Source: a virus. Taken from it: a DNA stretch of 37,224 bases. The notes under the pieces were generated by a model. The model worked only from the letters and a program-made list of their open reading frames with translations. It was not told the origin of the DNA and did not search any database. Positions within the stretch are counted from its first letter, which is position 1; every line of letters starts with the position of its first letter. The stretch spans positions 1-37,224 of IMG/VR virus record IMGVR_UViG_3300030117_003687. The stretch is one strand, 5' to 3'. The translations under genes and the position numbers were made by a program. Below, piece after piece: positions 4,794 through 35,544 of the stretch.

Positions 4794-7700
4794 TTACCTT
4801 GGCCTATAAGGAGTATATCCACTTAATGCTGCAACACTTTTCGGTTGATAGTAAGGACCAATACGAGGACGAACTCTTTGTATCACGGTTCCTGCACCAT
4901 CGTCCTCTTTTTCATCAGGCATACAAACAAATTGCCCGTCTACTTTAACAGCGGTAAATCCATCTGGGCACTCGAAAGGAGGCTTATCGTCATCACCCTC
5001 TGGTAAAGTAACACCCGTATCATCTTCTCCTGCATCGTCATCAACAACGACTTCTACCTCTTCTTCTGGCACAACGACAGTGGTTGCCGTTCCTGGTGGT
5101 CCTACCACAGTGGTAGTGGTGTCTGTTCCAGTATCCCCTGTAACAGTAGTGGTTGCTGCTGGATCTATTACTGGATTTACTACAGCTGTAGATGTTGGGT
5201 CTATTGTTGCTATCCCCGTCGCAGTAGTATCAACAGGTACAACATTGTACGGAGTAATATCTATGGCATCGTCCCCTGGTCTAGAGGTTGTTGTTTCTGA
5301 TTGTCCTGAAATTACGGGAGCAGTGCCGTCTCCCGGATCTCTTGGTACTGATATTTCTGTGCCCCCAACATTTGGAAGTGCAGGAGAAACAGCACTTGGT
5401 TGTGCCAAGCTAGTAATCTCAGGTATAGATAATCCAGTAGACTCAGAAATTTGAGATACTGTATTTGGAGAAAGACTACCTGTCGATGCTATCTCACTTT
5501 GTATAATATCTTGTATCGCCATAATCTCCATGCTCGTCGGGCCTTGATAGCTAGGAAGAGCAGGAGGAACATTTGATGGCAATGTCAACCCAGAAGGAAG
5601 ACCCTCTATATTAGGTTGAGTAAACATAGAAGGATCATATGGTGGCAATGAAGGTATTGAAGATGGTTGAGCAGTGCCCGATAAATCCATCTCAAGTTGA
5701 ATGTTTGGATCAATAGAAGTTTCAATATTAGGTAACGCAGAAAATCCCCCCGGTGCGGTTAATGCATCAGGTGGACCCGGAAATTGAAAACGAGGATCAA
5801 CAGCAACAGAAGAAATACCTCCACCCGTTGTCACATCAGGTGTTAGAGAACTCGGAGGTGTATACGACCCCATAAACTGACCCGGTTCCATGTTTAGTTG
5901 AAAATTAGGATCAAGCGTTTGTATCCCCTCTAATCCCGCAGGGGTCTCTATACTTGGACCAAGAGCCTCGGGGCTAACTCCTCCAAGAACAGCTGCTTGA
6001 ACTCCTGCATCAGCACTAATTGACGGAATACTTGTAGAAATTTGAGGAGCAGTGCCTGTTGTGCCTGTTTGAGTTTGAACTCCAGAACGAGTTCCTATTA
6101 ACGGAACACCTGTACCCGTTGCTATAATGCCCTCTCCAACAGCCTGTTTAGGATCAACTTGTCCAGTTCCTGCTAATTGTTGAACAACAGATTGTGCTGT
6201 CTCTGTCGCCCCTTCAAGAGCAGGTGCTATAATTTTTCCACCTTTTAAAACAGGAATAGCATTAAGAGCACCGTTAGCTAAACTCGCCGTTGTAGCATAA
6301 GTCCAATCCGAAGCATTTGGACTTGTACGCCCACTTAACGCAGCTCTTTCAAAAGCAATAGGACCTAATATTTGAGCAACTTCGGGAATAGCAGCACCAA
6401 CACCACTCGCAATCATTTGAGTTGTTGCTCCTGCTCCTAAAGCAAGAGCACCTTTACCAGCGGCATAAGCTGTTCCAATCGCAGCTACTAAATTAGGTAA
6501 TTGTTCTAAAACAGCACCAGGTAACTTTTCATAGTTAAAATTAAGAAGTCCTTCTTGTCCCTCCTTTGTAGCAGCAGCTAATGATGGATCAACCTCACCT
6601 GGAGCAAAACCGATTGGAGCATTAAACTGATTTAAAAACTGAGAGGTTGCACTAGGACCATAATCATACCCTTCGGCAAAACTATTAAGAGCTCTTGCGG
6701 CGTTATCAAAACCAAGGGCCTCCATTGTGGTTCCCACGGCAGAAGCACCTTGTTGCAGCCCTCCGTACATTGTATTTAAAGGATCTACTGTATATTGATC
6801 AGCACCAACTACTGGAGATATAACAGATCCTAAAATCGCACTTCCACCACCTATAAGATTTTTCTCATCTATGCCAGCAACAGCCCTCCGCTCTTCTTCA
6901 GCTTGCTCTGGCGTATAAGCTACTCCCCTAGAAGGATCATAAATTAAGCCCTGTTCAATTTCACTTAATCTTTGACCTATGTCTGCTCTACCAGCACCAT
7001 ATTGTGCTAATTGTTCCGCATACCCTGGAGCAAGTTGGTCAGACGGAACAGGGGCTGCCTCCGCAGAACCAAAAAAGTTTAATGGATTTAAATCGCTTAA
7101 CGAAAAGTTTAAACCAGCTGTTTCCACTGGTTCAGGCTCAACCCTCTTTAAATCTTCTGCATATTGAGCCAAAGATTTTTTGTTCCTATCTGAAGGATTA
7201 TATTGACCTCCCGAGTTAACAAAGTCCGTCGCCCCTTGCACACCGCCAAGATGTGCCGCTGCACGAAAACCATCTCGGTCTATTCCTGTTTCAGCCAAGG
7301 CAATAGGATCAAGAGCATCGTATGCTTTATCAATGTCGCCTATATGCCATAAATTAACCTTATCCTGAAGATCATTGTCCTGTACAAATTCAGAAAGCTG
7401 TATATCTGTGTTGTTCTCTCTGTTGTAATCATCTAATCGTGGTTGACCAAACTGAAGAAGACCCGAGTACCCTAACTCATTCACACTTTGATAATCTCCC
7501 GTGCCTATCTGCCCCGGAGTGCCGCTCTCAAAAGAAGCAAGTTTCTGAATAAACTCTTCTGGAGGTGACCCCTCATCTTTAAAAGCACCAGAGGCCAATG
7601 CGTTTTGTGTAAAAGCTAACTCTTCCCCAGGACCTACACCTTGGGCAACGGCCTGTGGAATAAGATCCCCGAACCTATCACCCTCGGGAGTAACCATGTC

Positions 7701-9941
7701 AGGAGACAGTGTAAGACTGCCGTCTTGAACAGGAGCCGCAGGTAAAGCACCAGGGGCAAAGGTTCCAGGACCACCTATAGGAAGTGTAGGGTCAGGAGTG
7801 GGGTCAGGAGCAGATGGTAATTGATAATCACCTAAAACACCAAGGTTCCTTGCATTCTCAGGGTCTATTTGAGGAACAACCTGACCAAAAGTCGGAGAAG
7901 CAGGATCATCATCACGAGCATAAGGAACAGTTAAAGGTCCAAGAGACGGGTCAAATACTTCCGCAATATCCTGACCAGCCATTTTAAATCGTTCAATATT
8001 ACCTAAATCATAATACTTATCTACAGCATTAGGATCTCCAGGAAACAATCTTTCTGCTTCCGTCTTAACCTGATCCCTAAGTCTTTGGTTCCTTGCAGCC
8101 TCACGCTCGTCTTTTCTCTCCTCTTTCCTTTCTTGAGCTCTTCTAGCCGCAGCCTGATCTTTAAGATACTGAGACACAAGCTCACTGTCCTCACCACCAA
8201 ATTGATCGTAAACCTTCTGTACTTCCTGATTCCTTAATTGATTCTTTAAAGCTCTTATTTTGTCGTTACCGCTCTCTCCACTCAAATTAAGAGAATCAAG
8301 ACCAAGAGCGTCAGCAGTTTCATCTCTATCTAAACGTTCTCCGTCTTTATAAAACTTAACGCTGTTGCCTGATCGAACCGCAACAACATTGTCATATTTT
8401 TCACCAAGATCATACTCAAATGCTTTTTTATCTCCATAGGTAACACCTGTAAGATCACTTTCTTTGTTCTTGTATCGAGTTCCAGTGCCAATATCTAAAT
8501 CTTTCACAGCATCAAGGGCCGAGGTCAAATCATCCATTGTCTGGGCAGGGGCAGCGTCAGCAGGAGGAGCCACTGGAGCCGTGCCCTCTAAACTTGCAAG
8601 ATATTGTTCATACGCTCTTCCTGTAGTACCGCTCGAAAATTCTGTACCGTCAGAAGCCGTGTACATATCCATCGTGCCAAAAGAAGGTAAGTTTTTATAA
8701 AAGTCTGATTCAAGAAAACCAGGATCACCTTGAAAACCCGGGACTGCTGGAGGGGCCGCCGGGGGTGCCGCCGGAGCATCCGTCGCTATTACACCACCAG
8801 GACCAGGGGCCGGGGGTGGAGCTGCTGGAGCCACAGGTGGAGGAGTGGGTGCTTGGGGAGGAGGAGCAGAAACAGGATCGCCAGAAAAAGTAGCAGGAGC
8901 AACATTCATCGTCTGCATCTGCGGAGGAGGAGAAGGAACTTCTTGAGCAGCCTGATTAGCTAAATATCCAGCTTGAGCAGACTTAAAATCAGCACTCGGT
9001 CCTATTCCTACATCACTAGGAGCAGGAGGCGTATATAAACCAGTAAAAGCACCCTTCTCATCTACCGTGTATTGTTGACCACCATAACCAGAAGCCTCAT
9101 CCAAGGTTCTGATCTCTTGACCACCAGCTCCATGAGTATGAACAACACCACCCTCGTGCATCGCAACCGGGATTAATGTGCCAGAAGGGCCTAAGAGCTT
9201 ATTCTCTTGCATCTTGAACCCATGTTTCTTTACCAGTAAATCTGCTATCTTTGGTGAAATAGTAGGTGACACATTGCCTCCCTCTGCAAAGTCATACTCT
9301 GTTCCTGAAGCAACCTCTCCTTCTTTCAGTCTGCTAACAGAAGGATAGACCTCGTCTCTAAGTCCTGGTTTACCTCTTAAATTTACCTGAAGTCCTCTTT
9401 TCTTCATTAACTTTTGTGCTTCTTGAGAAGTTATATTTCCTTTTCCATACTGTCCTAATATTGCCTCGGTTGTAGCATCATATGGAGCAGACACCTCAAC
9501 TTCATCTCCTACTTTTTTCTTTTCTAAAGGAGGCGGTTGAAACCTTCCTTTCTCTAAATAATCATCTATTCTTTTTCTTTCAGCCCTATTCATTTGACTT
9601 AAAAATTCACCCGGACCCAAGTCATTCATGTCTTCTGAAAAGTAACCCTGTGGGTCATCTTTTAAACCAGTAGGTACTTCCATCCTATTTCTTGCTCCGG
9701 CTCTTATCGCCCTTGCCGCTGCATCACCAACAAAAGGAATTAATCCTAGTATTGCAGCTCCACCCAAAGCTCCAATTAAAAAATAATTTGGATTAGGTTT
9801 TTTAATTTCCTCATATATTTCTTCAGCAGCCATTGCATCCCCTACAAGGGGAGTAGCTTCAGCTAAGAAAGTTCCAAGGCTCCCTAATCTTTCTCTGGTT
9901 TTTTCGCCTTCAAAAGGATTAGTACTAAACGAACCATCCAT
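4794..9941 (-). CDS. giant internal virion protein with lysozyme-like domain
   Basis: 1715 aa, first gene of the left late operon, start supported by AGAGGA upstream of the ATG at 9941. In order: a hydrophobic helix at about 50-75 (FLIGALGGAAILGLIPFVGDAA); a mixed region; a Pro/Ala-rich linker at about 335-410; a charged helical stretch at about 590-640; a muralytic-type segment at about 790-935 with FESG, NELGYSGLLQFGQPRLDDYNR-like core and WHIGDIDKAYDAL; Gly/Ala-rich hydrophobic segments at about 1175-1300; then a Ser/Pro/Thr-rich tail and a Thr/Val-rich acidic stretch before the C-terminus. The FESG...YSGLLQFG pattern resembles transglycosylase domains of phage virion proteins. By analogy with T7 gp16, it may be packaged and ejected to breach the wall. 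The catalytic residue assignment is inference. Confidence 0.75.
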   Translation of the reverse strand: MDGSFSTNPFEGEKTRERLGSLGTFLAEATPLVGDAMAAEEIYEEIKKPNPNYFLIGALGGAAILGLIPFVGDAAARAIRAGARNRMEVPTGLKDDPQGYFSEDMNDLGPGEFLSQMNRAERKRIDDYLEKGRFQPPPLEKKKVGDEVEVSAPYDATTEAILGQYGKGNITSQEAQKLMKKRGLQVNLRGKPGLRDEVYPSVSRLKEGEVASGTEYDFAEGGNVSPTISPKIADLLVKKHGFKMQENKLLGPSGTLIPVAMHEGGVVHTHGAGGQEIRTLDEASGYGGQQYTVDEKGAFTGLYTPPAPSDVGIGPSADFKSAQAGYLANQAAQEVPSPPPQMQTMNVAPATFSGDPVSAPPPQAPTPPPVAPAAPPPAPGPGGVIATDAPAAPPAAPPAVPGFQGDPGFLESDFYKNLPSFGTMDMYTASDGTEFSSGTTGRAYEQYLASLEGTAPVAPPADAAPAQTMDDLTSALDAVKDLDIGTGTRYKNKESDLTGVTYGDKKAFEYDLGEKYDNVVAVRSGNSVKFYKDGERLDRDETADALGLDSLNLSGESGNDKIRALKNQLRNQEVQKVYDQFGGEDSELVSQYLKDQAAARRAQERKEERKDEREAARNQRLRDQVKTEAERLFPGDPNAVDKYYDLGNIERFKMAGQDIAEVFDPSLGPLTVPYARDDDPASPTFGQVVPQIDPENARNLGVLGDYQLPSAPDPTPDPTLPIGGPGTFAPGALPAAPVQDGSLTLSPDMVTPEGDRFGDLIPQAVAQGVGPGEELAFTQNALASGAFKDEGSPPEEFIQKLASFESGTPGQIGTGDYQSVNELGYSGLLQFGQPRLDDYNRENNTDIQLSEFVQDNDLQDKVNLWHIGDIDKAYDALDPIALAETGIDRDGFRAAAHLGGVQGATDFVNSGGQYNPSDRNKKSLAQYAEDLKRVEPEPVETAGLNFSLSDLNPLNFFGSAEAAPVPSDQLAPGYAEQLAQYGAGRADIGQRLSEIEQGLIYDPSRGVAYTPEQAEEERRAVAGIDEKNLIGGGSAILGSVISPVVGADQYTVDPLNTMYGGLQQGASAVGTTMEALGFDNAARALNSFAEGYDYGPSATSQFLNQFNAPIGFAPGEVDPSLAAATKEGQEGLLNFNYEKLPGAVLEQLPNLVAAIGTAYAAGKGALALGAGATTQMIASGVGAAIPEVAQILGPIAFERAALSGRTSPNASDWTYATTASLANGALNAIPVLKGGKIIAPALEGATETAQSVVQQLAGTGQVDPKQAVGEGIIATGTGVPLIGTRSGVQTQTGTTGTAPQISTSIPSISADAGVQAAVLGGVSPEALGPSIETPAGLEGIQTLDPNFQLNMEPGQFMGSYTPPSSLTPDVTTGGGISSVAVDPRFQFPGPPDALTAPGGFSALPNIETSIDPNIQLEMDLSGTAQPSSIPSLPPYDPSMFTQPNIEGLPSGLTLPSNVPPALPSYQGPTSMEIMAIQDIIQSEIASTGSLSPNTVSQISESTGLSIPEITSLAQPSAVSPALPNVGGTEISVPRDPGDGTAPVISGQSETTTSRPGDDAIDITPYNVVPVDTTATGIATIDPTSTAVVNPVIDPAATTTVTGDTGTDTTTTVVGPPGTATTVVVPEEEVEVVVDDDAGEDDTGVTLPEGDDDKPPFECPDGFTAVKVDGQFVCMPDEKEDDGAGTVIQRVRPRIGPYYQPKSVAALSGYTPYRPR

Positions 9942-12044: not shown

Positions 12045-12222
12045 TAAACCCCCCAGCGAAGACGCAAGAGTTTTTTCTAAACCCCCCAGCCGAGACGCAA
12101 GTCACTCGAACAAAGACGCAAAGTAAAGACGCAAGTCAGCTCGCAAGGCATCGAACAAAGACGCAAGATCCTCGAACCTTGAACCTATGCCATCGTTATA
12201 AACCCCCCAGCCGAGACGCAAG
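12045..12222. repeat. GACGCAA repeat array at the nuclease 3' end
   Basis: Three 24-bp copies of a C6-containing unit lie at 12045-12068, 12078-12101 and 12199-12222. Copies 2 and 3 are identical; copy 1 has two differences. Between them are shorter units, including the exact 16-mer TCGAACAAAGACGCAA at 12106-12121 and 12151-12166. The core GACGCAA occurs six times, all in the same orientation (12061, 12094, 12115, 12128, 12160, 12215). The array covers the end of the VRR-NUC gene and continues past its stop toward the terminator. It may be a packaging or protein-binding site, given the adjacent small terminase gene. Confidence 0.9.
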
Positions 12223-14914: not shown

Positions 14915-15397
14915 ATGGGAGTTCGAGTTTATTTTGAGAGTGATCACTTATCTTGGGCGTGTGAAGTTGCCTATTTTAACAACGAGGACATCTATGATGC
15001 GTGTATAGATGTTCTTGAAGAAAAGGCAAAATCCGAAGGTTACTTTTTAACTGAGAGTGTAGAAGATGATGAAGATGATGAGGAAGAGAAAAAATTTATT
15101 TGGGTTTACCAATACAGGGAGAGTGGAGGAGAAGATATGATAGAATTATTTTCTCAACTCCCGACAAGAGATCAATTAAACAAAATTATATCGGAGAATC
15201 TTGGTATTGATGCCGAGGGTTTAAGAGCCAAGGGCGAGACCCTTGGTTTGAATGATATGCACAATTTTCATCAGGGTCAGGAAAAAGAGTACGTTAAAGG
15301 TGAGCGAGAGAGTTATGTCCCAGCCCCCGAGGATTTTTGTGATCCTGAATTTTACGAGAATTTATATCAACAAAACCTTATAGGAGGAGAAGAGTAA
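14915..15397 (+). CDS. acidic hypothetical protein, 160 aa
   Basis: Starts MGVRVYFESDHLSWACEVAY and has an Asp/Glu run at about 49-60 (EDDEDDEEE). It continues with VYQYRESGGEDMIELFSQLP and a C-terminal EDFCDPEFYENLYQQ. Overall strongly negative, as DNA-mimic or anti-host phage proteins can be, though that is speculation. The GGAGATAAGAG lead supports the start. The stop overlaps the following ATG (TAATG). Confidence 0.65.
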   Translation: MGVRVYFESDHLSWACEVAYFNNEDIYDACIDVLEEKAKSEGYFLTESVEDDEDDEEEKKFIWVYQYRESGGEDMIELFSQLPTRDQLNKIISENLGIDAEGLRAKGETLGLNDMHNFHQGQEKEYVKGERESYVPAPEDFCDPEFYENLYQQNLIGGEE

Positions 15398-16032
15398 TGC
15401 CAAATATATGCAGAAATTGGGCTAGATTTAGCCACAAAGACCCGAAGAAGTTTCAAGAACTATGCAACGCTATTACAAAAAGCGAATTGTGTTCTTATAT
15501 AATGCCCGAGCCTGACTACAAAAAAACTGTAGTCATGCCGACATACCCACACATATCAGGAAACGAGCCAGTTGATCCGAGTTCTGCTTGGTGGGATTGG
15601 CGAGTACAAAATTGGGGAACAAAATTGGAGTTAAATTTACGAGATGGTTTTTCTGACATTTGTCCTAATACAAATACTGCTTCCATAAATTTTGAGAGTG
15701 CATGGTCTCCACCCATTGGAATCTATAACAAGGCCGTCGAGCTTGGTTTTGAAGTTGAGGCCGAGTATGACGAGCCTGGGATGGATTTTTGTGGACGATA
15801 CATTAATGGGAAAGACGAGTGTATAAGAACGTCCGATAGTTTTAGAGAGGGTACGATGCCCAAATGGGCGTTGGACGATTATGGCGATAGAACTTGGGAA
15901 GGCATGGTTGATTGTGGGGAGATCGACAACGAAGGCAATCTTTTTGATTACGAGACCAAGTTAATGCTCAAAAAGCATGGTGAGTGGGGTCACGTTGAGT
16001 TTAACAAAAGAATGTTGGAGCTGGGGTCATGA
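15397..16032 (+). CDS. API92-like ferredoxin-fold protein
   Basis: 211 aa. MPNICRNWARFS at the N-terminus, NWGTKLELNLRDGF at about 70-83 and INFESAWSPPIGIYNKAVEL at about 97-116 are the signatures of the API92-like/DUF1281 family: MPNxCxN, NWGTKxD and F-x-T/S-AWSPP. The family is widespread in phages and integrative elements. It has a ferredoxin-like fold and no proven role. The C-terminal portion with GRYINGKDECIR and DRTWEGMVDCGEID extends beyond the core. Coupled to both neighbours by TAATG and ATGA overlaps. Confidence 0.82.
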   Translation: MPNICRNWARFSHKDPKKFQELCNAITKSELCSYIMPEPDYKKTVVMPTYPHISGNEPVDPSSAWWDWRVQNWGTKLELNLRDGFSDICPNTNTASINFESAWSPPIGIYNKAVELGFEVEAEYDEPGMDFCGRYINGKDECIRTSDSFREGTMPKWALDDYGDRTWEGMVDCGEIDNEGNLFDYETKLMLKKHGEWGHVEFNKRMLELGS

Positions 16033-16628
16033 CCTTAATTATCCGAGAAACCACGATGCAGAGTGCCAATGCTTTTATTAAAAAGTATCACAGGCACTCT
16101 GACATAGTACCAGCCCAACTGATGCACATATCTTTTGAGCTAATTGAATATCTCCATGTAGTCGATGGAAGCGTTCTCAAATACGCTAACAGAATTGGCG
16201 TTGCAATATTTGGTTATCCAAGTGGTCGATTTCATAACCAAGATATAATCGAATTAAGGCGAGTATGTTTTTCACCTGACGAACAGTTTTCTCAATTTAA
16301 AAACTGGTATCCTTCCGAGCGAGTGAAAAAATCTAAAAACAGCCCTAGTTTGAAAAATATTGCGATGATCGAACAGCTTTATGATACTCCACTTTCATTA
16401 TTGCCTGGAATAATGTGCAAAGCCTGGACCGTACCATCAAATTTTTTATTGTTTATCGAGCATATTGTAAGGCGTAGGTTTCCAGAATTTACTAGGATTG
16501 TGACTTACATTAGGCAGCATGAAAACGGCTCCTATTTAAAGAATGCTGGGTATTACATTGACAAACATTTTGAGAGAGGTGGTTCAAAAAAGTACAGATT
16601 AATGAAAGAGATAGGAGATTTATCATGA
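16029..16628 (+). CDS. Mom/XF1762-like GNAT-fold protein, possible DNA modifier
   Basis: 199 aa. The N-terminus has ANAFIKKYHRHSDIVPAQ (about 13-30), matching the A-x-x-F/W-I/V-x-x-x-HRH opening of XF1762/Mu Mom-like proteins. The core continues with IGVAIFGYPSGR (about 56-67), IIELRRVCF (about 73-81) and FTRIVTYIRQHENGSYLKNAGY (about 154-175), the GNAT-type strand and acyl-CoA loop region. Mu Mom converts adenine to a carbamoylmethyl derivative in DNA. Whether this homologue does the same is inference. An insertion at about 125-150 distinguishes it from short family members. A putative orphan methyltransferase lies 2.9 kb downstream. Confidence 0.7.
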   Translation: MTLIIRETTMQSANAFIKKYHRHSDIVPAQLMHISFELIEYLHVVDGSVLKYANRIGVAIFGYPSGRFHNQDIIELRRVCFSPDEQFSQFKNWYPSERVKKSKNSPSLKNIAMIEQLYDTPLSLLPGIMCKAWTVPSNFLLFIEHIVRRRFPEFTRIVTYIRQHENGSYLKNAGYYIDKHFERGGSKKYRLMKEIGDLS

Positions 16629-16831
16629 AAAAAGAATGGGTAATTGTTCGATATACAGATCACCGAGACAACGTAGGTCGTGAAGGTCGTGTAAATGCAT
16701 GGCGAGATTATGGTGATGACCACGTCTGGGGAAGTGTTCTTTATGAGGTCATAGGCTATCATAGTGGTTCTTATCGTGAAGCATTGGATCTCGGCAAGCA
16801 GTACTCTTGTGCTTTAGGTAAACGATCATGA
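16625..16831 (+). CDS. hypothetical protein, 68 aa
   Basis: MKKEWVIVRYTDHRDNVGRE continues with WRDYGDDHVWGSVLYEVIGY and SYREALDLGKQ. The pattern strand-loop-strand-helix is compact and soluble. The start overlaps the stop of the Mom-like gene (ATGA) with TAGGAG upstream. Unknown function. Confidence 0.6.
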   Translation: MKKEWVIVRYTDHRDNVGREGRVNAWRDYGDDHVWGSVLYEVIGYHSGSYREALDLGKQYSCALGKRS

Positions 16832-18903: not shown

Positions 18904-19314
18904 ATGATTATGGATGAGAAAAAGACGCAATACGCAACAGTTGAACTTATTAACTATGCAGATAGTGCGATTGCAGTAACCGAGGATCAAGAAAAAGTTT
19001 TCATTAATGCCAGGATTGTGGATAAGATGGATCTCCGGGAGGGAGAAACTCTTATGGTTACTATGGTTACAAACTTTTACGACAAGAGAGATGACATACC
19101 TTGGAGAGCTACGAGGGCCGAGAGAGTGAGCTCTCCTACTCTTATGTATTCTATACTAGAAACTATGTCCAAGGACACAAGTTATCTTTGGACGGCTGAA
19201 GAATTATCGCAGCTATTGAAAACGGACACAGACGAAATACGCAAGACCCTCGAATCGATGGATCAAATTAATACAGTTGTGAGTTATTGTCTTTCTCACA
19301 CATCTAATATATAA
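18904..19314 (+). CDS. hypothetical protein, 136 aa, possible two-domain regulator
   Basis: Residues about 10-75 are beta-rich (YATVELINYADSAIAVTEDQ, EKVFINARIVDKMDLREGETLMVTMV) like a small OB-type barrel. Residues about 80-130 are helical (YLWTAEELSQLLKTDTDEIRKTLESM), resembling a winged-helix with a recognition helix. No family is identified, and the domain reading is my inference from pattern. Starts 3 bases after the NrdR-like gene. The weak upstream sequence leaves 18904 or the ATG at 18910 as possible starts. Confidence 0.6.
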   Translation: MIMDEKKTQYATVELINYADSAIAVTEDQEKVFINARIVDKMDLREGETLMVTMVTNFYDKRDDIPWRATRAERVSSPTLMYSILETMSKDTSYLWTAEELSQLLKTDTDEIRKTLESMDQINTVVSYCLSHTSNI

Positions 19315-19345: not shown

Positions 19346-19540
19346 ATGAAGAAAAAAAACAATGTCGATAATGCCACACTTTCTGAAAATCCTCGACACA
19401 AATATAGAACTGTGGCTTTACTTTTAAAAGATTATGCTTTTTTAAAAGAGATAGCTGACGATGAGCAACGTTCTATGGCTCGTCAGTTGTCGGTGATTAT
19501 AAGAAAGGAATACGAATCCCTTCATGGGAAAGCGATCTAA
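19346..19540 (+). CDS. ribbon-helix-helix (Arc/CopG-like) DNA-binding protein
   Basis: 64 aa. After a basic, disordered start, KYRTVALLLKDYAFLKEIAD gives a beta strand followed by helix 1, and EQRSMARQLSVIIRKEYESL gives helix 2, the RHH spacing. AAAGGATACACA supports the start. RHH dimers repress promoters by binding short inverted repeats. Its own promoter and the phage control regions are plausible targets. Its 3' end overlaps the methyltransferase by 17 bp. Confidence 0.72.
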   Translation: MKKKNNVDNATLSENPRHKYRTVALLLKDYAFLKEIADDEQRSMARQLSVIIRKEYESLHGKAI

Positions 19541-20072
19541 TTTTGAGCGGGTAGAAAGAGACTTTTATCCCACACCTTTTCAAGCAGTCAAACCTCTCCT
19601 ACCACATTTATCAGAGAAAGAGTTCTTTGTTGAACCATGTGCCGGGGACGGTACTCTTGTGGATCATCTAGAAAAGAACAATATGAAATGCATATTTCAA
19701 TCGGACATTGAGCCAAGACGCAAGAACATACTAGAGCTTGATGTATTTAAACTTGATGCTATGCAGTTTTTAAATGCTGATTTAATTATTACTAATCCAC
19801 CTTGGGATCGAAAGATATTGCACCCTTTAATTCTGCATTGCATTCAGTTGTTACCAACATGGTTGCTGTTTGATGCTGATTGGATGCACACCAAACAGGC
19901 CGCTGACTATCTGCCTTATTTAAAAAAGATTGTTAGTGTTGGTCGGGTTAAATGGATACCTGATTCTGAAAGCACTGGAAAAGATAATTGTTGTTGGTAC
20001 TATTTTGATAAATATAGTAAAGCAACGTGTGCTTCTTTTTATGGTAGACTTTCAAATGGTCGGTTGTTATAG
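19524..20072 (+). CDS. orphan SAM-dependent DNA methyltransferase-like protein
   Basis: 182 aa. DFYPTPFQAVKPLL at about 13-26 is the usual opening of phage DNA-methylase-like proteins. FVEPCAGDGTLVDHL (about 35-49) is the SAM-binding motif I, and LIITNPPW (about 87-94) is motif IV with NPPW, typical of N6-adenine or related amino-methyltransferases. No target-recognition domain or paired restriction enzyme is seen. DNA, RNA or protein could be the substrate, but self-protection of phage DNA is the usual reading. The start is not preceded by a strong ribosome site and probably relies on overlap with the RHH gene. A terminator follows. Confidence 0.78.
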   Translation: MGKRSNFERVERDFYPTPFQAVKPLLPHLSEKEFFVEPCAGDGTLVDHLEKNNMKCIFQSDIEPRRKNILELDVFKLDAMQFLNADLIITNPPWDRKILHPLILHCIQLLPTWLLFDADWMHTKQAADYLPYLKKIVSVGRVKWIPDSESTGKDNCCWYYFDKYSKATCASFYGRLSNGRLL

Positions 20073-23421: not shown

Positions 23422-24951
23422 ATGTCTGAGGCAGAGCAGTTGCTTGCAGTATTTCAAGGATCAAAAGCCGCTCACGGTCAAACAATACTGGGACGTGTTG
23501 GTCGGAATGGTAAGACCGAGGCCAACAGTACCGTGGTTCGAGAGCCGTTGACCGTGGATAAAGTACAAGCCCACATAGATGGGAAACACGGCGTTGGTTC
23601 AATCCCTATAACGCAGGATAACATGTGTAAGTTTGGAGCATTGGACATTGATACCTATGACCTTGATCACAAAAGCTTAAATAAAAAGATACTTAAATTA
23701 AAACTTCCTTTGTTGTTATGTCGATCCAAGTCAGGTGGTGCCCATTTGTTTTTGTTTTTAAAGGATTGGGAACCTGCGTCTTTGGTTCGAGAATATTTAA
23801 CAGAGATGTCTATAACCCTGGGACATTCGGGCTGCGAGATTTTTCCAAAACAGGACAAGATACTTGCGGATCGTGGTGACGTTGGAAACTTTATTAACAT
23901 GCCATACTTTAAGGCTGACCTGACAACAAGGTATTGTTTGAATAAGGACGGTGAAGCCATGAGCCTTGTCGAGTTTTTTGAAGCTGTTAAGAAGAAGCGT
24001 ATTTCTGTGTCTGAGTTAAACTCGTTTCAGTTTGCCGGAAAGAGAGAACACTTTGTTGATGGTCCATATTGCCTGGAGGTTATATCAAGTCTTGGTCCGG
24101 TCAGTGAAATGAGAAACATTTTTATGTTTGCCGTTGGGGTATACTGCCGATACAAGTGGCCCGACGATTGGAAGAAGCACCATGAAGAATATAACAGGAT
24201 GCTTTGCTCTCCTTCTCTCGACGCAAAAGAAATCGTGCAGATACAGGAGTCTTTACAGAAGAAAGAATACTTTTATCAGTGTGAAGTGTGTCCACTGAAG
24301 GATCACTGCGATAAAGATATATGTAAGACCCGGCCCTTTGGCGTTGGGAGCTCGGCTCCTGATACCCCTGACCTTGGGGGATTGACGATCATGTTATCAG
24401 AACCTCGGTTATACTTCATGGATGTAAATGGCAAGCGGGTGCAGCTATCGACAGAGCAACTACAGAACCAGCTGCTGTGGCAGAGGGCTTGTATGGAACA
24501 GATCCAAACTATGCCGCCTACAGTAAAGCCACAGAAGTGGCAGATGTTGGTTAGTCTTCTGATGGATAAGTCTACACAGCTCGAGGTTCCAGAAGAGTTG
24601 ACCTTGACAGGACAGTTTAAAGAACTGTTGAAGACTTATTGCACGAGCCGGATTAAAGCTATGGCTCCTGAAGAAATGGAGATGGGCAAACCTTGGACAG
24701 ACGAGGGTCTCACAAGGTTTACGATTGCAGGACTTATGCAGTTCCTCAAGAACCGTGGGTTTACTTCTTATTCAAGAGCCCAGGTGCAAGAACAAATAAA
24801 ACATTTGAATAACGGACAAGAATGTTTTGGTAGATACAACGTCCGAAATGCAGACGGTAAAAGAATCCAACTACGAGTGTGGTGGGTTCCATCGTTTGAA
24901 GAGAATGAAGGTGAAACTGAAAAGGAGATACTAGATGACATACCCTTCTAG
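23422..24951 (+). CDS. AEP-superfamily (TOTE-type) DNA primase
   Basis: 509 aa. FGALDIDTYD (D75, D77) provides the first metal-binding DxD motif, CRSKSGGAHLFLFL (about 97-110) the S-x-H nucleotide-binding motif, and GDVGNFINMPYF the third block, as in archaeo-eukaryotic primases of the TOTE-conflict type. A Cys-rich knuckle, CEVCPLKDHCDKDIC, at about 290-304 probably binds zinc. The C-terminal 180 residues are helical (winged-helix-like). The very end, EKEILDDIPF, copies the bacterial SSB tip. It synthesises primers for replication. GGAGGAGAAT supports the start. The HTH gene overlaps its 3' end by 17 bp. Confidence 0.85.
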   Translation: MSEAEQLLAVFQGSKAAHGQTILGRVGRNGKTEANSTVVREPLTVDKVQAHIDGKHGVGSIPITQDNMCKFGALDIDTYDLDHKSLNKKILKLKLPLLLCRSKSGGAHLFLFLKDWEPASLVREYLTEMSITLGHSGCEIFPKQDKILADRGDVGNFINMPYFKADLTTRYCLNKDGEAMSLVEFFEAVKKKRISVSELNSFQFAGKREHFVDGPYCLEVISSLGPVSEMRNIFMFAVGVYCRYKWPDDWKKHHEEYNRMLCSPSLDAKEIVQIQESLQKKEYFYQCEVCPLKDHCDKDICKTRPFGVGSSAPDTPDLGGLTIMLSEPRLYFMDVNGKRVQLSTEQLQNQLLWQRACMEQIQTMPPTVKPQKWQMLVSLLMDKSTQLEVPEELTLTGQFKELLKTYCTSRIKAMAPEEMEMGKPWTDEGLTRFTIAGLMQFLKNRGFTSYSRAQVQEQIKHLNNGQECFGRYNVRNADGKRIQLRVWWVPSFEENEGETEKEILDDIPF

Positions 24952-28838: not shown

Positions 28839-29095
28839 TGTTAAAAGCAGATGGATTTGACGATGCTGTTATAGGCATTGGAAGTAGATGTGGCAGTGAA
28901 GATGTTATTGTTTACGATGCAGAGAAGTGCATAGAGATCCTTGTTAGAGATCATGACATGGACCCTGATGAGGCTTTAGATTATTTTTCGTTTAATACTC
29001 TAGGATCTTACGTTGGAAAACTTACTCCTGTTTTCGTATGGCAAAGATCTATGAAAGAGATTGACGACGAGCAATCTCTTGAGTCGCTAAATTAG
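28838..29095 (+). CDS. small conserved phage protein, last of replication operon
   Basis: 85 aa from a GTG at 28838 that overlaps the polymerase stop. The opening VLKADGFDDAVIGIGSRCGS, VYDAEKCIEILVRDHDMDPD and EALDYFSFNTLGSYVGKLTP follow a pattern seen in small phage proteins (DGFDxAxIGI, YDxxKCIExL, EAxExFxFN, G-x-x-TPVF). Function not established. Its 3' end runs 47 bp into the convergent 1377-aa virion gene. Confidence 0.7.
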   Translation: MLKADGFDDAVIGIGSRCGSEDVIVYDAEKCIEILVRDHDMDPDEALDYFSFNTLGSYVGKLTPVFVWQRSMKEIDDEQSLESLN

Positions 29096-32000
29096 ATCCA
29101 GCCAAGGACTGAGGATCAATGTTACTTTGAGGTGTTGTAAACTGTGGCCTAACTCCTGGCGTGGTGGTTGCAGCAGCGGCTGGAGGTACAATGTTTTGTA
29201 TGTTCTCTACCAAGCTACTCAAAGCACCAGCCGCACCAGGTGATTGTGTCCGGGTAGGTGTAGAGCTTACATCTTCGTAACTTAAATTCTTAAACGTGTT
29301 TGACATTTCGTTTATAATTGATGTTGGAAATATATCATAAGTGCCAGCTTGTTTCATCTTTCTTATGTTATCATCTGTAATGCTAAACGGTGTAAACTTT
29401 CCTTTAAATATTTCTTTTACGTCCCCGGTTAACATAGCGTTTTGTTTTAATATTTTTTTTATTTCAAGCTCCGATAAACCTAACGTTTTTAAATCTTGTA
29501 TCGCTTGATAAAACTTTTTATCGTTTGCAAACTTTCTTTCATTTCCATATTGATACCCTTCAACAAAAGTATTTGCGTTTGCATTTTCATCATCAGTGTA
29601 CCTGTTAAACAATCTTCGAGAATCTCTTTGTGCTCGTTGATGTTCTCGTCCTTTAAATTGTGCACCTTTTTTAATATCAAATTCTCTCGAACTAAATCCC
29701 GTAAGTCGAAACAATTCTCCATCTGCAAAAAACTTTTCTTGTGTTCCACCAATAGATCTCTCTCTTCCAAATTTATCTGTGTTACTTACAACTCCAAAAG
29801 AACCAAGACCTGCTCGAGCAAAACGACTAAGTTGAAGTTCACCTCCACTGACTTCAAGAGGTATTAAGTTTGGAAGAATGGTGTCAAGAACATGAAGGTG
29901 AGCTTTCGCCATTTTATTAAATCTTGTGTCCTGTGGATTAAATATCTCTGCTCCTGTTTGAGTTCGACCTTCTCTTGCGGTTACATCTAACAACGCCTCT
30001 GCAACCATAGATTGACTAAGGAAAGGTTCAGCAAGTTCTCTTGTGCTTTGAAACATAATGTTTCCCATTATATCAGGAACAGATTGATTTAATGTAGCAC
30101 CTGTTTCTATAGCATTAAGAGCAGCGTAACCCATTCGAGAAACTGTGTCATAGGGGTTTGACAAACTAAAATTTATGTAACTTAAATTACCGTCCTTGGC
30201 TATGGATAAAGGAATAAGAAGTGAGTTCTTTTCCCACGTTGCACCAAAGGATCTCTGGTATGCTTTCATTTGATCTCGGTCAACTCCACTAACACTATAC
30301 GCAAAGGTAGAGAGAGCTCCTGGAAGAACAGCTGTTGTTCCAATAAAAGAAATAAGTCTTTTACGACCTTCGTCTTGAACCTCTTTGATTGGAGATCTAA
30401 TGTCCTCTAATGCTTGTTTTATAATGTGAGAACTCGTTCTCCATATTTCATAAGGAAAAGTTATAAAGTTACCAACCGGAACTTTTCTAGCTGCTCTGAG
30501 AACATCAGGGGCTTTATTGTAATTAGGCACAGTATCCCTAACAATTTGAGCAGCACGATCTTTAATTAACTCATCTATAATTTCGGGCTTTAAATTTGTA
30601 ACTCTGCCATCGTCTATACGACCTCCATTTTTTGCCCATTTTTGATATGCTTCCAAGGACATATCCGTGCCGTTTTTAGTAAGATGAAAAAACTTTTGTT
30701 CATCTGTTGCAGCCCGTAAAGAATTAGTTAACCTTTGTTTTTCAAATTCATAAGAATGTAGCTTCCAAACATCATCAGACCCTTGATATGCTTTTTCCAT
30801 AAATTTAAAAAGTTTACCACCACCTTGAGCAAGTTTACTTTTTTCAAGTAAAGTTCCAAGTTTCTCTCCGGCAAAAGGTATGTCTTGTACAAGAGCAGCA
30901 CCCCCTGTTTTAGCAGGTTTAAAGTCTGCACCTATTCCTACCCCTTGACTAATAAGATCTTGTATTTCTCTAAGCTCTGCTTGTGTTCCTAACACCCCAC
31001 GACTTTGAGCTTCTTGAAGATAATCTAAAAGTTTTTCATCAGTGAAGTTTCCTCTAATATTTTGACGCACAGCATCTATAGAGTCTGCAAGACTACCCCC
31101 CATACCAGAACCAATGTTACCATTAGCAACAGCAAACAAAGAAGCTGTAGTAAAATTTCTTATTTGTGTTATTGGAGATAGAACTGTTTTAGAATATTGA
31201 GACGCACCCTTTGCTCTTAAAAATGCCCCATATAATCGAGATACTCCAGCCGAAACAACATTGTCTTCGTTTAAAACACTCCTTGTTAGGTTAGAGTAAA
31301 TTGCTTCTGGAACAATATAACCGTGCAATGCTCCCCATCCAGACTGATCTATAGGTTCGTCAGCAGCCACATCGTCCCCTCGATCTATATGACTTTTGCC
31401 ATTCTTTGAACCAAGCTGAACATAGTTTCCAGAATCTACAAGAGATTTTATTTGATCTTCACTAAACCGTTCTGGGTTCATAAAGTACTTTCCGATTGTT
31501 TCTGGATTGGCATCAGCAAGTTCTCTTGTTACACCAAAGTAATCATCAATAGCTTTAAACTCAGATAAGTCTGCAATCGTTCCAAGGTATGCCTCTCTTG
31601 GATCGTCTACCTCTCCAAGTAGTTGTCTAATCGCAGGGGGAATATTTTCACGATCTATAAACATACCCGTGTTAAGCCTGTCCACAGCGACACGACCTCC
31701 TTTGTGTTTTCTATTTTTTAAATTTTTATATTTATTTAAAGTAAGTTTTCTAGCTTCAGCTGCTGCCTCGTCTGAAACATCCCCTGCAAAACGAATTTCA
31801 TTATCTACCTCAACAAGTCCTAAGTCTTTCATCTTTTGATCAGAAAGATAGTTGCCTCCAGGTATGTCTGGATTGCCTCTTGCCTTCGTAAACATTTGAG
31901 CAGCAAATCTTTTACCTTCTTTTGTTTTAAAAAAAGTATCCACTACTTTTTCTGTCGCTTCATCAGGAACATAATTAGCGTTTTCAAGAGCTCTATATCT

Positions 32001-33182
32001 TCTACGAACATAAGTATTGAGGTTAGCTGTTATAGTTTCTTCTAATTGTTTTTTCCCTGTTTTTGTGTTTGTAAAATCATTATACTTTAAAAAATGACTA
32101 TTTAAAATATTATCACTTAATTTATCAATATGATTCCTCATATCATTTGCGTCTTTTCTTAACTTAGGATTTATGTCTTTTAGTTTAGATCTTTTAAAAA
32201 TTTCTTTTGTTATGCCTTTATCGAGCTCGTCTTTCGTAGGAGCTGATGTAAGATAATCCATAATTTTATTTAATTCTTGTACACGACGGTTTTTTAAAGG
32301 CTCCCCAGATAAATTATTAAAAGCAGATGATAAATTTTTATCAAACTTATTGAGTAAGTTTTCAGCTACCATTACATCATTTTGAACAATGCCCGAAGTC
32401 ATAAGTCTTTTATTTGATATGGCTTCAGGTAAAAAAGATCTGTATCTAAAACCAGCCAAAACATCTGCAAAAAGTTTTTGTCCTTTTGTTAATTCTCTGT
32501 CTGTACCTTGTCCAAAAATTCTGTCTTGTTCTAACTGTTTTAATTTTTCTTGTATCTTAGTAGAGCCAACAGCACCTTTTGCCCCAACAACAGCACCCGT
32601 AAGAACACCACCAACAACTCCTGCTTCTGCTCCTATTTTAAGTTTGTTTTTTATTCTTCGTAAGGCTTCTGCACGTCCGTCTAATCCAATGGTTTGATCC
32701 GAAGCTGTGGGTCCACCACCAAAAAAATCACCTATTGTTGTCATGCCATCTGTAGAAACAGCAGCGTCTACCCCGGCGGCAGCACCGAGTTCCTTTGCAT
32801 AATACCCAAACTTTTCAGCTGCTGTAAAATCTTTTAAATCTTCAGATAAACCTTTAGCTTTTCGTGCCGCTTTGGTAGCAGCTCCAACAGTTCTTGCCGC
32901 AGCTACCCCGGGAACTACAAATTGAGTTAAGACTTCTGCACCCTTACCAGCAAAACCCACAGGGTCTATGCCTAAACTTTCTCTTAACTCTTCAGCTGCG
33001 TCTGTTATAGCTGAAGAATAGTTTGATCCAGCAATGAGGTCCACGGCTGAAGCACCAAGTTCCCCGATCCCTTGTCCTATGCCAATAACACCAGAGGCAA
33101 CGCCTTCTGCAAGCTCTATAGGTAACCCTTCGCTCTTTGACTTACCTGTTCTTATAGGTCTTCCAAATTTATCAAAAGCCAT
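29049..33182 (-). CDS. giant internal virion (ejection) protein
   Basis: 1377 aa, last gene of the right-hand late operon; GAGGAGTAAAG supports the start at 33182. The N-terminal 250 residues contain Gly/Ala zipper-like hydrophobic stretches (GVASGVIGIGQGIGELGASA, VVPGVAAARTVGAA, VGGVLTGAVVGAKGAVG). A long mostly helical charged body follows with VRRRYRALENANYVP and VGNFITFPYEIWRTSS, and the tail is Pro/Ala-rich. Size, membrane-insertion-type segments and position resemble the internal core/ejection proteins of short-tailed phages and N4-like relatives. No enzymatic motif was found. Confidence 0.7.
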   Translation of the reverse strand: MAFDKFGRPIRTGKSKSEGLPIELAEGVASGVIGIGQGIGELGASAVDLIAGSNYSSAITDAAEELRESLGIDPVGFAGKGAEVLTQFVVPGVAAARTVGAATKAARKAKGLSEDLKDFTAAEKFGYYAKELGAAAGVDAAVSTDGMTTIGDFFGGGPTASDQTIGLDGRAEALRRIKNKLKIGAEAGVVGGVLTGAVVGAKGAVGSTKIQEKLKQLEQDRIFGQGTDRELTKGQKLFADVLAGFRYRSFLPEAISNKRLMTSGIVQNDVMVAENLLNKFDKNLSSAFNNLSGEPLKNRRVQELNKIMDYLTSAPTKDELDKGITKEIFKRSKLKDINPKLRKDANDMRNHIDKLSDNILNSHFLKYNDFTNTKTGKKQLEETITANLNTYVRRRYRALENANYVPDEATEKVVDTFFKTKEGKRFAAQMFTKARGNPDIPGGNYLSDQKMKDLGLVEVDNEIRFAGDVSDEAAAEARKLTLNKYKNLKNRKHKGGRVAVDRLNTGMFIDRENIPPAIRQLLGEVDDPREAYLGTIADLSEFKAIDDYFGVTRELADANPETIGKYFMNPERFSEDQIKSLVDSGNYVQLGSKNGKSHIDRGDDVAADEPIDQSGWGALHGYIVPEAIYSNLTRSVLNEDNVVSAGVSRLYGAFLRAKGASQYSKTVLSPITQIRNFTTASLFAVANGNIGSGMGGSLADSIDAVRQNIRGNFTDEKLLDYLQEAQSRGVLGTQAELREIQDLISQGVGIGADFKPAKTGGAALVQDIPFAGEKLGTLLEKSKLAQGGGKLFKFMEKAYQGSDDVWKLHSYEFEKQRLTNSLRAATDEQKFFHLTKNGTDMSLEAYQKWAKNGGRIDDGRVTNLKPEIIDELIKDRAAQIVRDTVPNYNKAPDVLRAARKVPVGNFITFPYEIWRTSSHIIKQALEDIRSPIKEVQDEGRKRLISFIGTTAVLPGALSTFAYSVSGVDRDQMKAYQRSFGATWEKNSLLIPLSIAKDGNLSYINFSLSNPYDTVSRMGYAALNAIETGATLNQSVPDIMGNIMFQSTRELAEPFLSQSMVAEALLDVTAREGRTQTGAEIFNPQDTRFNKMAKAHLHVLDTILPNLIPLEVSGGELQLSRFARAGLGSFGVVSNTDKFGRERSIGGTQEKFFADGELFRLTGFSSREFDIKKGAQFKGREHQRAQRDSRRLFNRYTDDENANANTFVEGYQYGNERKFANDKKFYQAIQDLKTLGLSELEIKKILKQNAMLTGDVKEIFKGKFTPFSITDDNIRKMKQAGTYDIFPTSIINEMSNTFKNLSYEDVSSTPTRTQSPGAAGALSSLVENIQNIVPPAAAATTTPGVRPQFTTPQSNIDPQSLAGSNLATQEIARRQSLS

Positions 33183-33194
33183 CTTTACTCCTCA

Positions 33195-34406
33195 CTAAGG
33201 TTTCTTGAGAAGTTTACCTGAATTTTTGTCTCTAAAAACAGTCCCAGAAGTCAACTCATCATATTCTTCTTTAGTGCCTATAATTTTAACAGAACCACCA
33301 AGCCTATCTTCTGTAATGTCTATTGCTCTCCTAGACAAAGGAGCTATTCTAGAAGCTACTTCTTGTGCCGCTTCATCTGCTTGTTCGGGAGACATTCTTT
33401 CTCCAGTATCAGGATCTACCTTACTTATGTTTTCTGCAAAAAGAGCAGCATACGCAGCGTCATACGTTTTATCTGCCTCTTTAGTTACCTCGTCTTGCTT
33501 GTCCATTGCATAAAGAGAACTTTCCGCATACGCCCGAGAAGGAAAAGGACTTTTACTAGCAGCTTCTGCAAACCCTTGCCTCATCTGAAACCTTAAAGCC
33601 TCTTTCTCTTGAGGAGATAAACCCTTATCAACCGTTACCTCCTCTAGTCCTTCAGGTATTCCTTCATCCTCAAACAAACTTCCTATTGCTTTATCGCCAT
33701 AATACAACCCAGCTCCTGTTAAAATAGGGTTTCTTCTCATTGCTCTTAAAGTTTTACCCACAGGTCCTGTGGGTTTGCCACCACCAACTTTTCCTCTTAA
33801 AGCATCAATACCTCTTCCGACAGTAGCCCCTGCAAGACGATCTACTTTACTTATAGCTTTTTCAAAACCTGCTGGACCTTTTCCCCCGATACCTGATCTA
33901 GGTCTTCCTTGTAAAGAACGTGCAATACGAGGGAGATATTGTAATCCTCGTTGAACTAATGCTCCAGCAAAATAGTTACTTGGATAAGCATTCATAATGC
34001 CACCTGTTGCCGCCATTCGCACAGGCATGTTCATTTGAGGGGGCTGTCCCATCTGAGGTCGTTGCCCCATCTGAGGCTGCATTCTCATTTGAGGGGGCTG
34101 TCCCATTTGAGGAGGCTGTCCCATTTGAGGAGGCTGTCCCATCTGGGGTTGCATTCTCATCTGAGGCTGCATTCTCATTTGAGGAGGAGACATTGGTTTA
34201 CCAGGAGGTATAATAGGTTGAAAGGGAACAGGGTTCATCATTCCCTGACCCGTCATCTTTTCAACAGTAGCACTTGGAGCACCACCCATAACAGCGTTCA
34301 TAAGTTCTTCAGAAGATCCCATAATGCCACCCATTTTTTTAAGGGCGTTTCTTGCTTCTTGGTTTTTCTTTCTAAATAAACTTCTGTTATTAACATCTGT
34401 TGCCAT
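33195..34406 (-). CDS. virion-associated protein with Pro-Gln-Met repeats
   Basis: 403 aa. The ATG at 34406 (MATDVNNRSL) follows the upstream stop by 1 base, with GGAG upstream; an earlier frame start at 34418 is less likely. Residues about 70-125 are low-complexity PQMGQP/PQMRMQ hexapeptides from an 18-bp DNA repeat. Then come hydrophobic MAATGGIMNAYPSNYFAGAL, a Gly/Arg-rich part, and an acidic helical C-terminus (EVASRIAPLSRRAIDITEDR). It lies between other virion genes and is probably an internal or tail-associated structural protein. Catalytic motifs are not seen. Confidence 0.65.
   Translation of the reverse strand: MATDVNNRSLFRKKNQEARNALKKMGGIMGSSEELMNAVMGGAPSATVEKMTGQGMMNPVPFQPIIPPGKPMSPPQMRMQPQMRMQPQMGQPPQMGQPPQMGQPPQMRMQPQMGQRPQMGQPPQMNMPVRMAATGGIMNAYPSNYFAGALVQRGLQYLPRIARSLQGRPRSGIGGKGPAGFEKAISKVDRLAGATVGRGIDALRGKVGGGKPTGPVGKTLRAMRRNPILTGAGLYYGDKAIGSLFEDEGIPEGLEEVTVDKGLSPQEKEALRFQMRQGFAEAASKSPFPSRAYAESSLYAMDKQDEVTKEADKTYDAAYAALFAENISKVDPDTGERMSPEQADEAAQEVASRIAPLSRRAIDITEDRLGGSVKIIGTKEEYDELTSGTVFRDKNSGKLLKKP
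34041..34184. repeat. 18-bp coding minisatellite, eight units
   Basis: Eight contiguous 18-bp units on the plus strand, such as AGGCTGTCCCATTTGAGG, with two unit classes (GGCTGTCCCAT... and CTGCATTCTCAT...) interspersed. They encode PQM(G/R)-containing hexapeptides on the minus strand. In-frame unit length means gain or loss of a unit would not disrupt the gene. Confidence 0.88.
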
Positions 34407-34407
34407 G

Positions 34408-35544
34408 TTACACTCCACTCACGTTTCTAAGACCACCCAGTCCACCAAGTTGTTGTTGTGCTGAATATCCTGCAACATTTCCTAAGAAAGAAGATACAGG
34501 ATTAGGTCTTGGTATACTAGACATTGTCATTGTTTGTGCCGTGGAAGGAACGCCCCTAAATATATCAGACATATATGAAAAACGTTGAAAGGGTTCATAT
34601 GCTTCTTCTATGGCCCCAGCCCTCTGCACATCATATTCTGCTTGTCTCTGTGCTTGCTCTAAGGAACCAACATTAAACAAGGCATTAATATCTCGTTGTG
34701 CCGCAGATTGTGCTGCTTCCCCAAGAGCACCTTGCTTCACACCAAGCCCTGCAATACCCTGACCCAAAGAACCAAACAATTGTGATGCTGTTTGTCCTCT
34801 GTTCATTTGGTTTTCAAACGCAGATTGTGCTTGCTGTTGAGCACCTGTGTAAGCCTGTGATCGTAGCTGTGCACCCACTCGTGCTTTTCTATCGTCTATG
34901 TTTCTTTGTAACTCTTGCTCTGTAACCGCTTGTCGAGATCCACCAAAGGCTCCGGAACGAACAGCTTGAGCTCGATCACCAATTCCTGCTATATCCCCGG
35001 CTCTTTGAATGTCTGCTTGTGTTGTATCAATTACTTCCTCTACAAACGGATCATAAAACTCTTTATATGAAGTGGGATCATATGCCCCTGTTGTACTGTC
35101 TAAAGTAGTCCCAGCCTTTCTATAAGATTCAAGACCCTCGCCCAAGGTACTGGCAGCTTGTTCCATCATAGGTTGATATAAACCTATACCACCTCCAACT
35201 CTTTCTCCGGTTTCAGGGTCAACAGTTCCTGTCATTAATTCTATGGCTCTTTGTTGAGCCGGAGTAAACTGCATAATGTCAGGTCGAGGAACACCGCCTT
35301 GAACTTGTTGTATCGGTTCACCATATTGATCGTATCTTACATTACCTTCCTGATCTAACTCATAAACAGGATTACCTTCTTCGTCTGTTACAGGAACACC
35401 GTATAACGGAGACGTGGCAGCAATGCCTGTAGGTTGACCTGTCTCAGGATCAACTTGATAAACATTTGCTAGAAGGTCTTTAAGAAATCGTTCTTGATAG
35501 TCAGGAAGATATTGACCACTTAACTGTACATACTGTTCAGCCAT
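34408..35544 (-). CDS. virion structural protein with GAFGGSRQ motif
   Basis: 378 aa. An N-terminal YLPDYQERFLKDLLANVYQ is followed by TPAQQRAIELMTG, a PFVEEVIDTTQADIQRAGDI helix, VRSGAFGGSRQAVTEQELQR, a Gln/Ala-rich helical stretch with YTGAQQQAQSAFENQ, and a C-terminal PFQRFSYMSDIFRGVPS. I recall the SGAFGGSRQ block from internal virion proteins of environmental podo-like phages. A packaged, mostly helical protein is likely, but the exact location is unproven. TAATG junction with the upstream gene. Confidence 0.7.
   Translation of the reverse strand: MAEQYVQLSGQYLPDYQERFLKDLLANVYQVDPETGQPTGIAATSPLYGVPVTDEEGNPVYELDQEGNVRYDQYGEPIQQVQGGVPRPDIMQFTPAQQRAIELMTGTVDPETGERVGGGIGLYQPMMEQAASTLGEGLESYRKAGTTLDSTTGAYDPTSYKEFYDPFVEEVIDTTQADIQRAGDIAGIGDRAQAVRSGAFGGSRQAVTEQELQRNIDDRKARVGAQLRSQAYTGAQQQAQSAFENQMNRGQTASQLFGSLGQGIAGLGVKQGALGEAAQSAAQRDINALFNVGSLEQAQRQAEYDVQRAGAIEEAYEPFQRFSYMSDIFRGVPSTAQTMTMSSIPRPNPVSSFLGNVAGYSAQQQLGGLGGLRNVSGV

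Follow-up and report, generated by a model that had tools for sequence, protein, structure and literature searches.

A divergent XF1762/Mom-like GNAT protein with an enlarged beta4-alpha3 loop in a viral small-gene cluster

A gene in the virus record IMGVR_UViG_3300030117_003687 (positions 1 to 37,224, a stretch of 37,224 nucleotides analysed as a whole and referred to here as the window) encodes a protein, P0001, which is homologous to the XF1762/Mom clan, has a predicted GNAT fold and carries a long insertion between beta4 and alpha3. On balance, and with somewhat better than even confidence, we favour the view that P0001 is a divergent Mom-like enzyme that acylates a base of phage DNA and thereby counters restriction. 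Mu Mom and the XF1762 family are thought to decorate phage DNA against bacterial restriction enzymes, and Mom-like modification is among the least understood of phage anti-restriction chemistries. The XF1762 family is widespread and has been named from sequence only; a literature search for experimental work on its proteins found none.

The gene and its relation to the XF1762/Mom clan

The open reading frame that a first-pass annotation of the window had singled out as Mom-like is confirmed exactly where it had been placed, at 16029..16628 on the plus strand, with an ATG start and a product of 199 residues with a pI of about 9.5. The sequence does contain all four blocks that had been quoted in its support (ANAFIKKYHRH, IGVAIFGYP, IELRRVCF and TYIRQHENGSYLKNAGY). 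At both ends, the gene shares a four-base ATGA overlap with its neighbour, namely an upstream gene for an Api92/DUF1281-like protein (15397..16032, plus strand) and a downstream gene for a protein of 68 residues (16625..16831, plus strand). Together with a GGAG a short way before the start codon, these overlaps indicate that P0001 belongs to a tightly packed operon.

Sequence profiles connected P0001 with XF1762/Mom only and with no general GNAT family. The XF1762_fam model (NCBIfam NF045478) matched it in two separate stretches, one in the N-terminal and one in the C-terminal half, with an E-value of 6.7e-12 and 45.5 bits; as this is 4.5 bits short of the curated cut-off of 50 bits, the curators' rule does not admit P0001 as a member of the family, of which it is a divergent relative. 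PHROG 1384 ('Mom-like DNA modification protein') matched at E 7e-10, and the Pfam Mom family (PF25680) at E 0.11 and 12.6 bits, below its curated threshold of 27.1 bits. A PDB search with a profile of P0001 and three Mom/XF1762 relatives retrieved Mu Mom (E 1.1e-24), although much of this signal comes from the other members (the P12002L protein alone matches Mom at 1.2e-13), and a PDB search with the P0001 sequence alone gave no match. Judged by these profile comparisons, the resemblance between P0001 and the XF1762/Mom clan exceeds chance.

In a phylogenetic tree, P0001 fell on the XF1762 side of a well-supported split between Mom and XF1762. Its branch, 5.8 changes per site in length, sets it far from every relative found and is so long that the exact place of the protein is unsure. 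Single-protein scans for close relatives in viral contigs and species genomes (two rounds each) returned only a 29% match (L001) or nothing, a scan of plasmids returned nothing, and phages yielded three weak matches, none of them close. The seven-member alignment was too divergent to derive patterns from it. The DNA pattern GVA[IV][FY]GYPxGR was discarded: it found 33 loci, none of which had a relative at phmmer E <= 10.

Predicted fold, insertion and conserved residues

The AlphaFold2 model of P0001 (21 alignment rows; mean pLDDT 72, pTM 0.67) has most of its core at pLDDT 73-92, with a poorly modelled stretch at residues 93-132. Its elements follow the order beta1-alpha1-beta2-beta3-beta4-alpha3-beta5-alpha4-beta6-beta7, and in this model the fold is firmly that of a GNAT protein. 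A comparison of the predicted structure with Mom had been suggested as a check, and it yielded Mu Mom as the top solved structure: the crystal structure 8bv8 ranked first in Foldseek (E 6.9e-8; there were 109 PDB matches at E <= 0.001, and among the 50 listed all were Mom or acetyltransferases) as well as in VIA-align (Z 14.6, rmsd 2.7, 138 residues; next Z 13.5). The model of a canonical XF1762 protein (L041; pLDDT 86) has the same fold, with Mom among its top three structural matches. The assignment of P0001 to the Mom-like GNAT proteins thus stands by its XF1762_fam and PHROG 1384 matches and by its predicted fold. As to function, the model supports a Mom-like role weakly: general GNATs (RimI-, SpeG- and others) scored Z 12-13.5 in VIA-align, close to Mom, and with so narrow a margin between Mom and ordinary acetyltransferases the substrate cannot be read from the fold.

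The predicted acyl-CoA site of P0001 most likely lies in the groove between beta4 and alpha3, and it is at the mouth of this site that the insertion is found (residues 85-132; 16281..16424, plus strand). Modelled as helical with low confidence and basic in character (RVKKSKNS), it had been put at 25 residues in the first-pass annotation; the spacing in the models of P0001 and L041 gives about 47 instead, with 54 residues separating beta4 (which ends at residue 81) from alpha3 (which starts at residue 136) in P0001 versus 5 in L041, an excess of about 47-49. The beta2-beta3 loop holds a further 9-13 extra residues.

With these additions, P0001 has 199 residues, about 47 of them inserted before alpha3, compared with about 145 in XF1762 NF045478, and shares with that family its GNAT element order and its core motifs, namely HRH after alpha1, GVxIxGxP (in the form GVAIxGxP), ExxRxC in beta4 and TYxxxxExGxxL in beta5-alpha4. 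The last of these belongs to the block T159-Y ... E165-x-G167-S-Y-L-K ... Y176 (16503..16556, plus strand), which is common to XF1762 (TY...E-x-G-x-x-L-K). On the other hand, the NxCSxLY (NACSxLY) start of alpha3 is lost, with VPSN replacing NACS, as are the VGHKF(S) loop and the C-terminal Trp.

The correspondence with Mu Mom follows a similar pattern. H21 of H21-R22-H23 (16089..16097, plus strand) aligns with Mom H58 (KHYS), and E75-x-x-R78 (16251..16262, plus strand) aligns with Mom E108/R111 (ELNR), a pair that is invariant in Mom, XF1762 and P0001. In contrast, Mom Y59 and Y159 are replaced by R22 and L170, both tyrosines being absent from the aligned XF1762 proteins too, and the C-terminal extension of Mom is missing. 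The PDB title of 8bv8 reads 'inactive mutant S124A', and the counterpart of S124, and of the serine of NACS, is most likely S137 in V135-P-S137-N (16431..16442, plus strand). This choice rests on its position at the start of alpha3 in the model, on its distance of 22 residues from T159 of beta5, which equals that from Mom S124 to the matching Ser, and on a BLAST pairing of VPS with IPS of L077, where the XF1762 serine lies. A full-length MAFFT alignment instead pairs KNSPS107, within the insertion, with NSES of Mom, making S107 the alternative.

Lost signature residues on a kept GNAT core, the very long tree branch and the near-equal scores of RimI-, SpeG- and other general GNATs would also fit a Mom-like ancestor that had been diverted when it gained the insertion and lost the XF1762 signature, so that P0001 would now be an active GNAT acting on a host protein, a peptide or a small molecule (e.g., a host factor taken over or inactivated by acetylation). 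We give this a rather low probability, as the sequence profiles lead to XF1762/Mom and to no general GNAT family, and P0001 retains the Mom-clan residues H21 and E75/R78.

Relatives with enlarged loops

The contigs L077-L079 were found with a DNA pattern modelled on the TY...E-x-G-x-Y-L-K block, and they in turn led to L084. These contigs, which are probably marine, carry XF1762 proteins with additions of their own in the two loops that are enlarged in P0001, which implies that the clan tolerates growth at these two places. Their small clade is the nearest partial match to the architecture of P0001: besides the extra residues in the same two loops, it has ExGSY[LY]K and Ile/Ala-Pro-Ser at the start of alpha3 (an [IV]PS motif replacing NACS, comparable to VPS in P0001). 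Unlike P0001, its members have most of their extra length (about 60 residues) in the beta2-beta3 loop and retain GHKFT and W, and their identity to P0001 is 25% over 123 positions. The genes in question (L077:1205-1939 and L084:6001-6702, with their roughly 60 extra residues between beta2 and beta3) adjoin a gene resembling a serine recombinase. In Vibrio phage 10N.286.55.F1_PE001, the annotation divides the XF1762 gene (L008:1992-2487) into two adjacent ORFs, one labelled Mom and the other XF1762, so that it is a split or broken copy.

The tolerance of this second marine clade for insertions at the same two loops is one reason why we consider it unlikely that P0001 is what remains of a GNAT that has decayed or lost catalysis, its acyl-CoA binding disrupted by the insertion. 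The reading frame is moreover open over 199 codons and overlaps both neighbours, and the core clan residues are kept, whereas decay would be in line with an insertion placed directly before alpha3 and modelled with low confidence, with the replaced N of the NxxS motif, and with the lack of close relatives that could reveal purifying selection.

Proposed function

As a base-acylating enzyme, the reading that we prefer, P0001 would belong to the XF1762 side of the Mom clan as an acyltransferase with a GNAT fold. Using acyl-CoA bound at the beta4-alpha3 groove, it would transfer an acyl-derived group to a base of freshly synthesized phage DNA. If Mu Mom is a guide, this base may be adenine, with the group at N6. 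Phage DNA modified in this way would be less readily cut by the host's type II restriction enzymes. The insertion, basic and placed at the active-site mouth, could serve as a DNA-gripping or substrate-selecting element, in place of the C-terminal extension of Mom.

In favour of this proposal are the XF1762_fam and PHROG scores, the GNAT model with Mom at the top rank, the conserved H, E and R together with the alpha3 serine, and two observations taken up below, the ties of the clan to methylation and the avoidance of palindromes. Against it are the scores below the cut-offs, the lost XF1762 signatures, the changes at Y59 and Y159, the nearly equal general GNATs and the lack of a close relative. 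The first-pass suggestion of DNA hypermodification and anti-restriction accordingly holds as far as the Mom-like GNAT family is concerned, and modification and protection are what we infer from that family. There is also a low probability that the new insertion, which is basic, and the changed start of alpha3 give P0001 a donor or a base target unlike that of Mom, which would amount to an undescribed base modification. A divergent natural variant in which H, E and R are retained but the two tyrosines and the alpha3 start differ would reveal which residues the chemistry needs.

Links to DNA methylation

In L085, an XF1762 gene stands directly before a gene that is Dcm-like by eye, and in P12002L and L001 Mom-like genes lie next to or near DNA methyltransferase genes. 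The gene at L027:2411-4441 (plus strand) encodes a 677-residue protein in which a C5 cytosine methylase (PF00145, E 1.7e-26) is fused to an XF1762/Mom-like GNAT domain, which makes it a candidate for coupled base modification. Through these cases, the XF1762/Mom clan is tied to DNA methylation. DNA methyltransferases were likewise the commonest family among the neighbours of XF1762 genes (6/103 C5 methylases, 2 N6/N4 and 1 Dam), a tally of raw counts without a fair background set, and hence not a statistic. The 507-residue product of the gene that follows XF1762 in L025 has no Pfam match and is terminase-like by eye; it was not counted as a partner.

The window contains an orphan methyltransferase of its own (19524..20072, plus strand; 182 residues), which has EPCAGDGTL and NPPW motifs, is of a common phage type and lies 2.9 kb downstream of P0001 with about ten genes between. 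Homologues of it occur in 69 records of phages with other host groups, among them phages of Roseobacter, Microcystis, Caulobacter and others (50-56% identity), and the organisms listed as carrying it showed no overlap with the 26 XF1762 carriers. That this enzyme and P0001 form one combined base-modification system is highly improbable: both sit in the same rightward small-gene cluster and other Mom-like genes do adjoin methyltransferases, but the ten-gene gap, the common type with its similar homologues in varied phages and the separate sets of listed carriers argue against it, so that of the combined defence raised in the first-pass annotation the methyltransferase itself exists and the partnership is unsupported.

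Avoidance of restriction palindromes

Six-base palindromes occur in the window at 0.74 of their Markov expectation, compared with 1.00 +- 0.026 for random 6-mer sets, the lowest of which reached 0.93. GGATCC, CTGCAG and CTTAAG are absent, with 10, 9 and 7 copies expected. GACGTC and CCATGG are also absent, and GCGC occurs once versus 24 times expected. Avoidance resembling that of the window is seen in Mu (0.60), HTVC034P (0.70) and P12002L (0.82), and is weaker in HTVC027P (0.88), 023Pt_psg01 (0.91), DSL-LC04 (0.97) and HTVC023P (0.98), relatives of the window without a P0001-like match; as a contrast of four against four genomes unmatched for host and lifestyle, this is only a hint. The avoidance suggests that this phage lineage is exposed to type II restriction, and that its protection, if it has any, is either incomplete or of recent origin. 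Its use as evidence against protection was dropped, given that Mu itself avoids palindromes more, and because Mu shows avoidance too, it neither proves nor refutes protection. The figures also point to a cheap way of asking by computation whether carrying a Mom-like gene goes with heavier restriction. In 023Pt_psg01 (L088, 1-39468), CATG is wholly absent, with about 103 copies expected, and avoidance of this single site suggests one dominant restriction enzyme in the host of that phage.

Genomic context

The window, a linear virus record of 37 kb, probably comes from a phage of an alphaproteobacterial host. Its terminase shares 52-58% identity with those of 023Pt_psg01, HTVC027P, DSL-LC04 and HTVC023P, and since the genomes of these relatives measure 57-62 kb, the window is probably a fragment. 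In tblastn comparisons with parts of two of them, terminases, portal and replication genes were common to both sides, and the small-gene cluster of the window (13.4-20 kb) had no match, so that P0001 looks like an accessory gene.

Several further features of the window were recorded. The sequence GACGCAAG is present in 8 copies (0.6 expected; maximum 3 in 100 shuffles), all on the plus strand, with five copies in 160 bases at 12061-12222 and others at 2095, 18387 and 19717. A tandem array with periods of 18, 36 and 72 bases (34032-34187) lies inside a minus-strand ORF at 33195-34418. Two long minus-strand ORFs, of 1715 residues (4794-9941) and 1377 residues (29049-33182), have no Pfam match at E 0.01, and their products are possibly internal virion or polyvalent proteins. 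Finally, a plus-strand gene at 23422-24951 encodes a primase with a TOTE-type AEP domain (E 1.2e-15), and another at 18904-19314 a small protein that weakly resembles a TOTE S1/CSD-like domain (E 0.0027).
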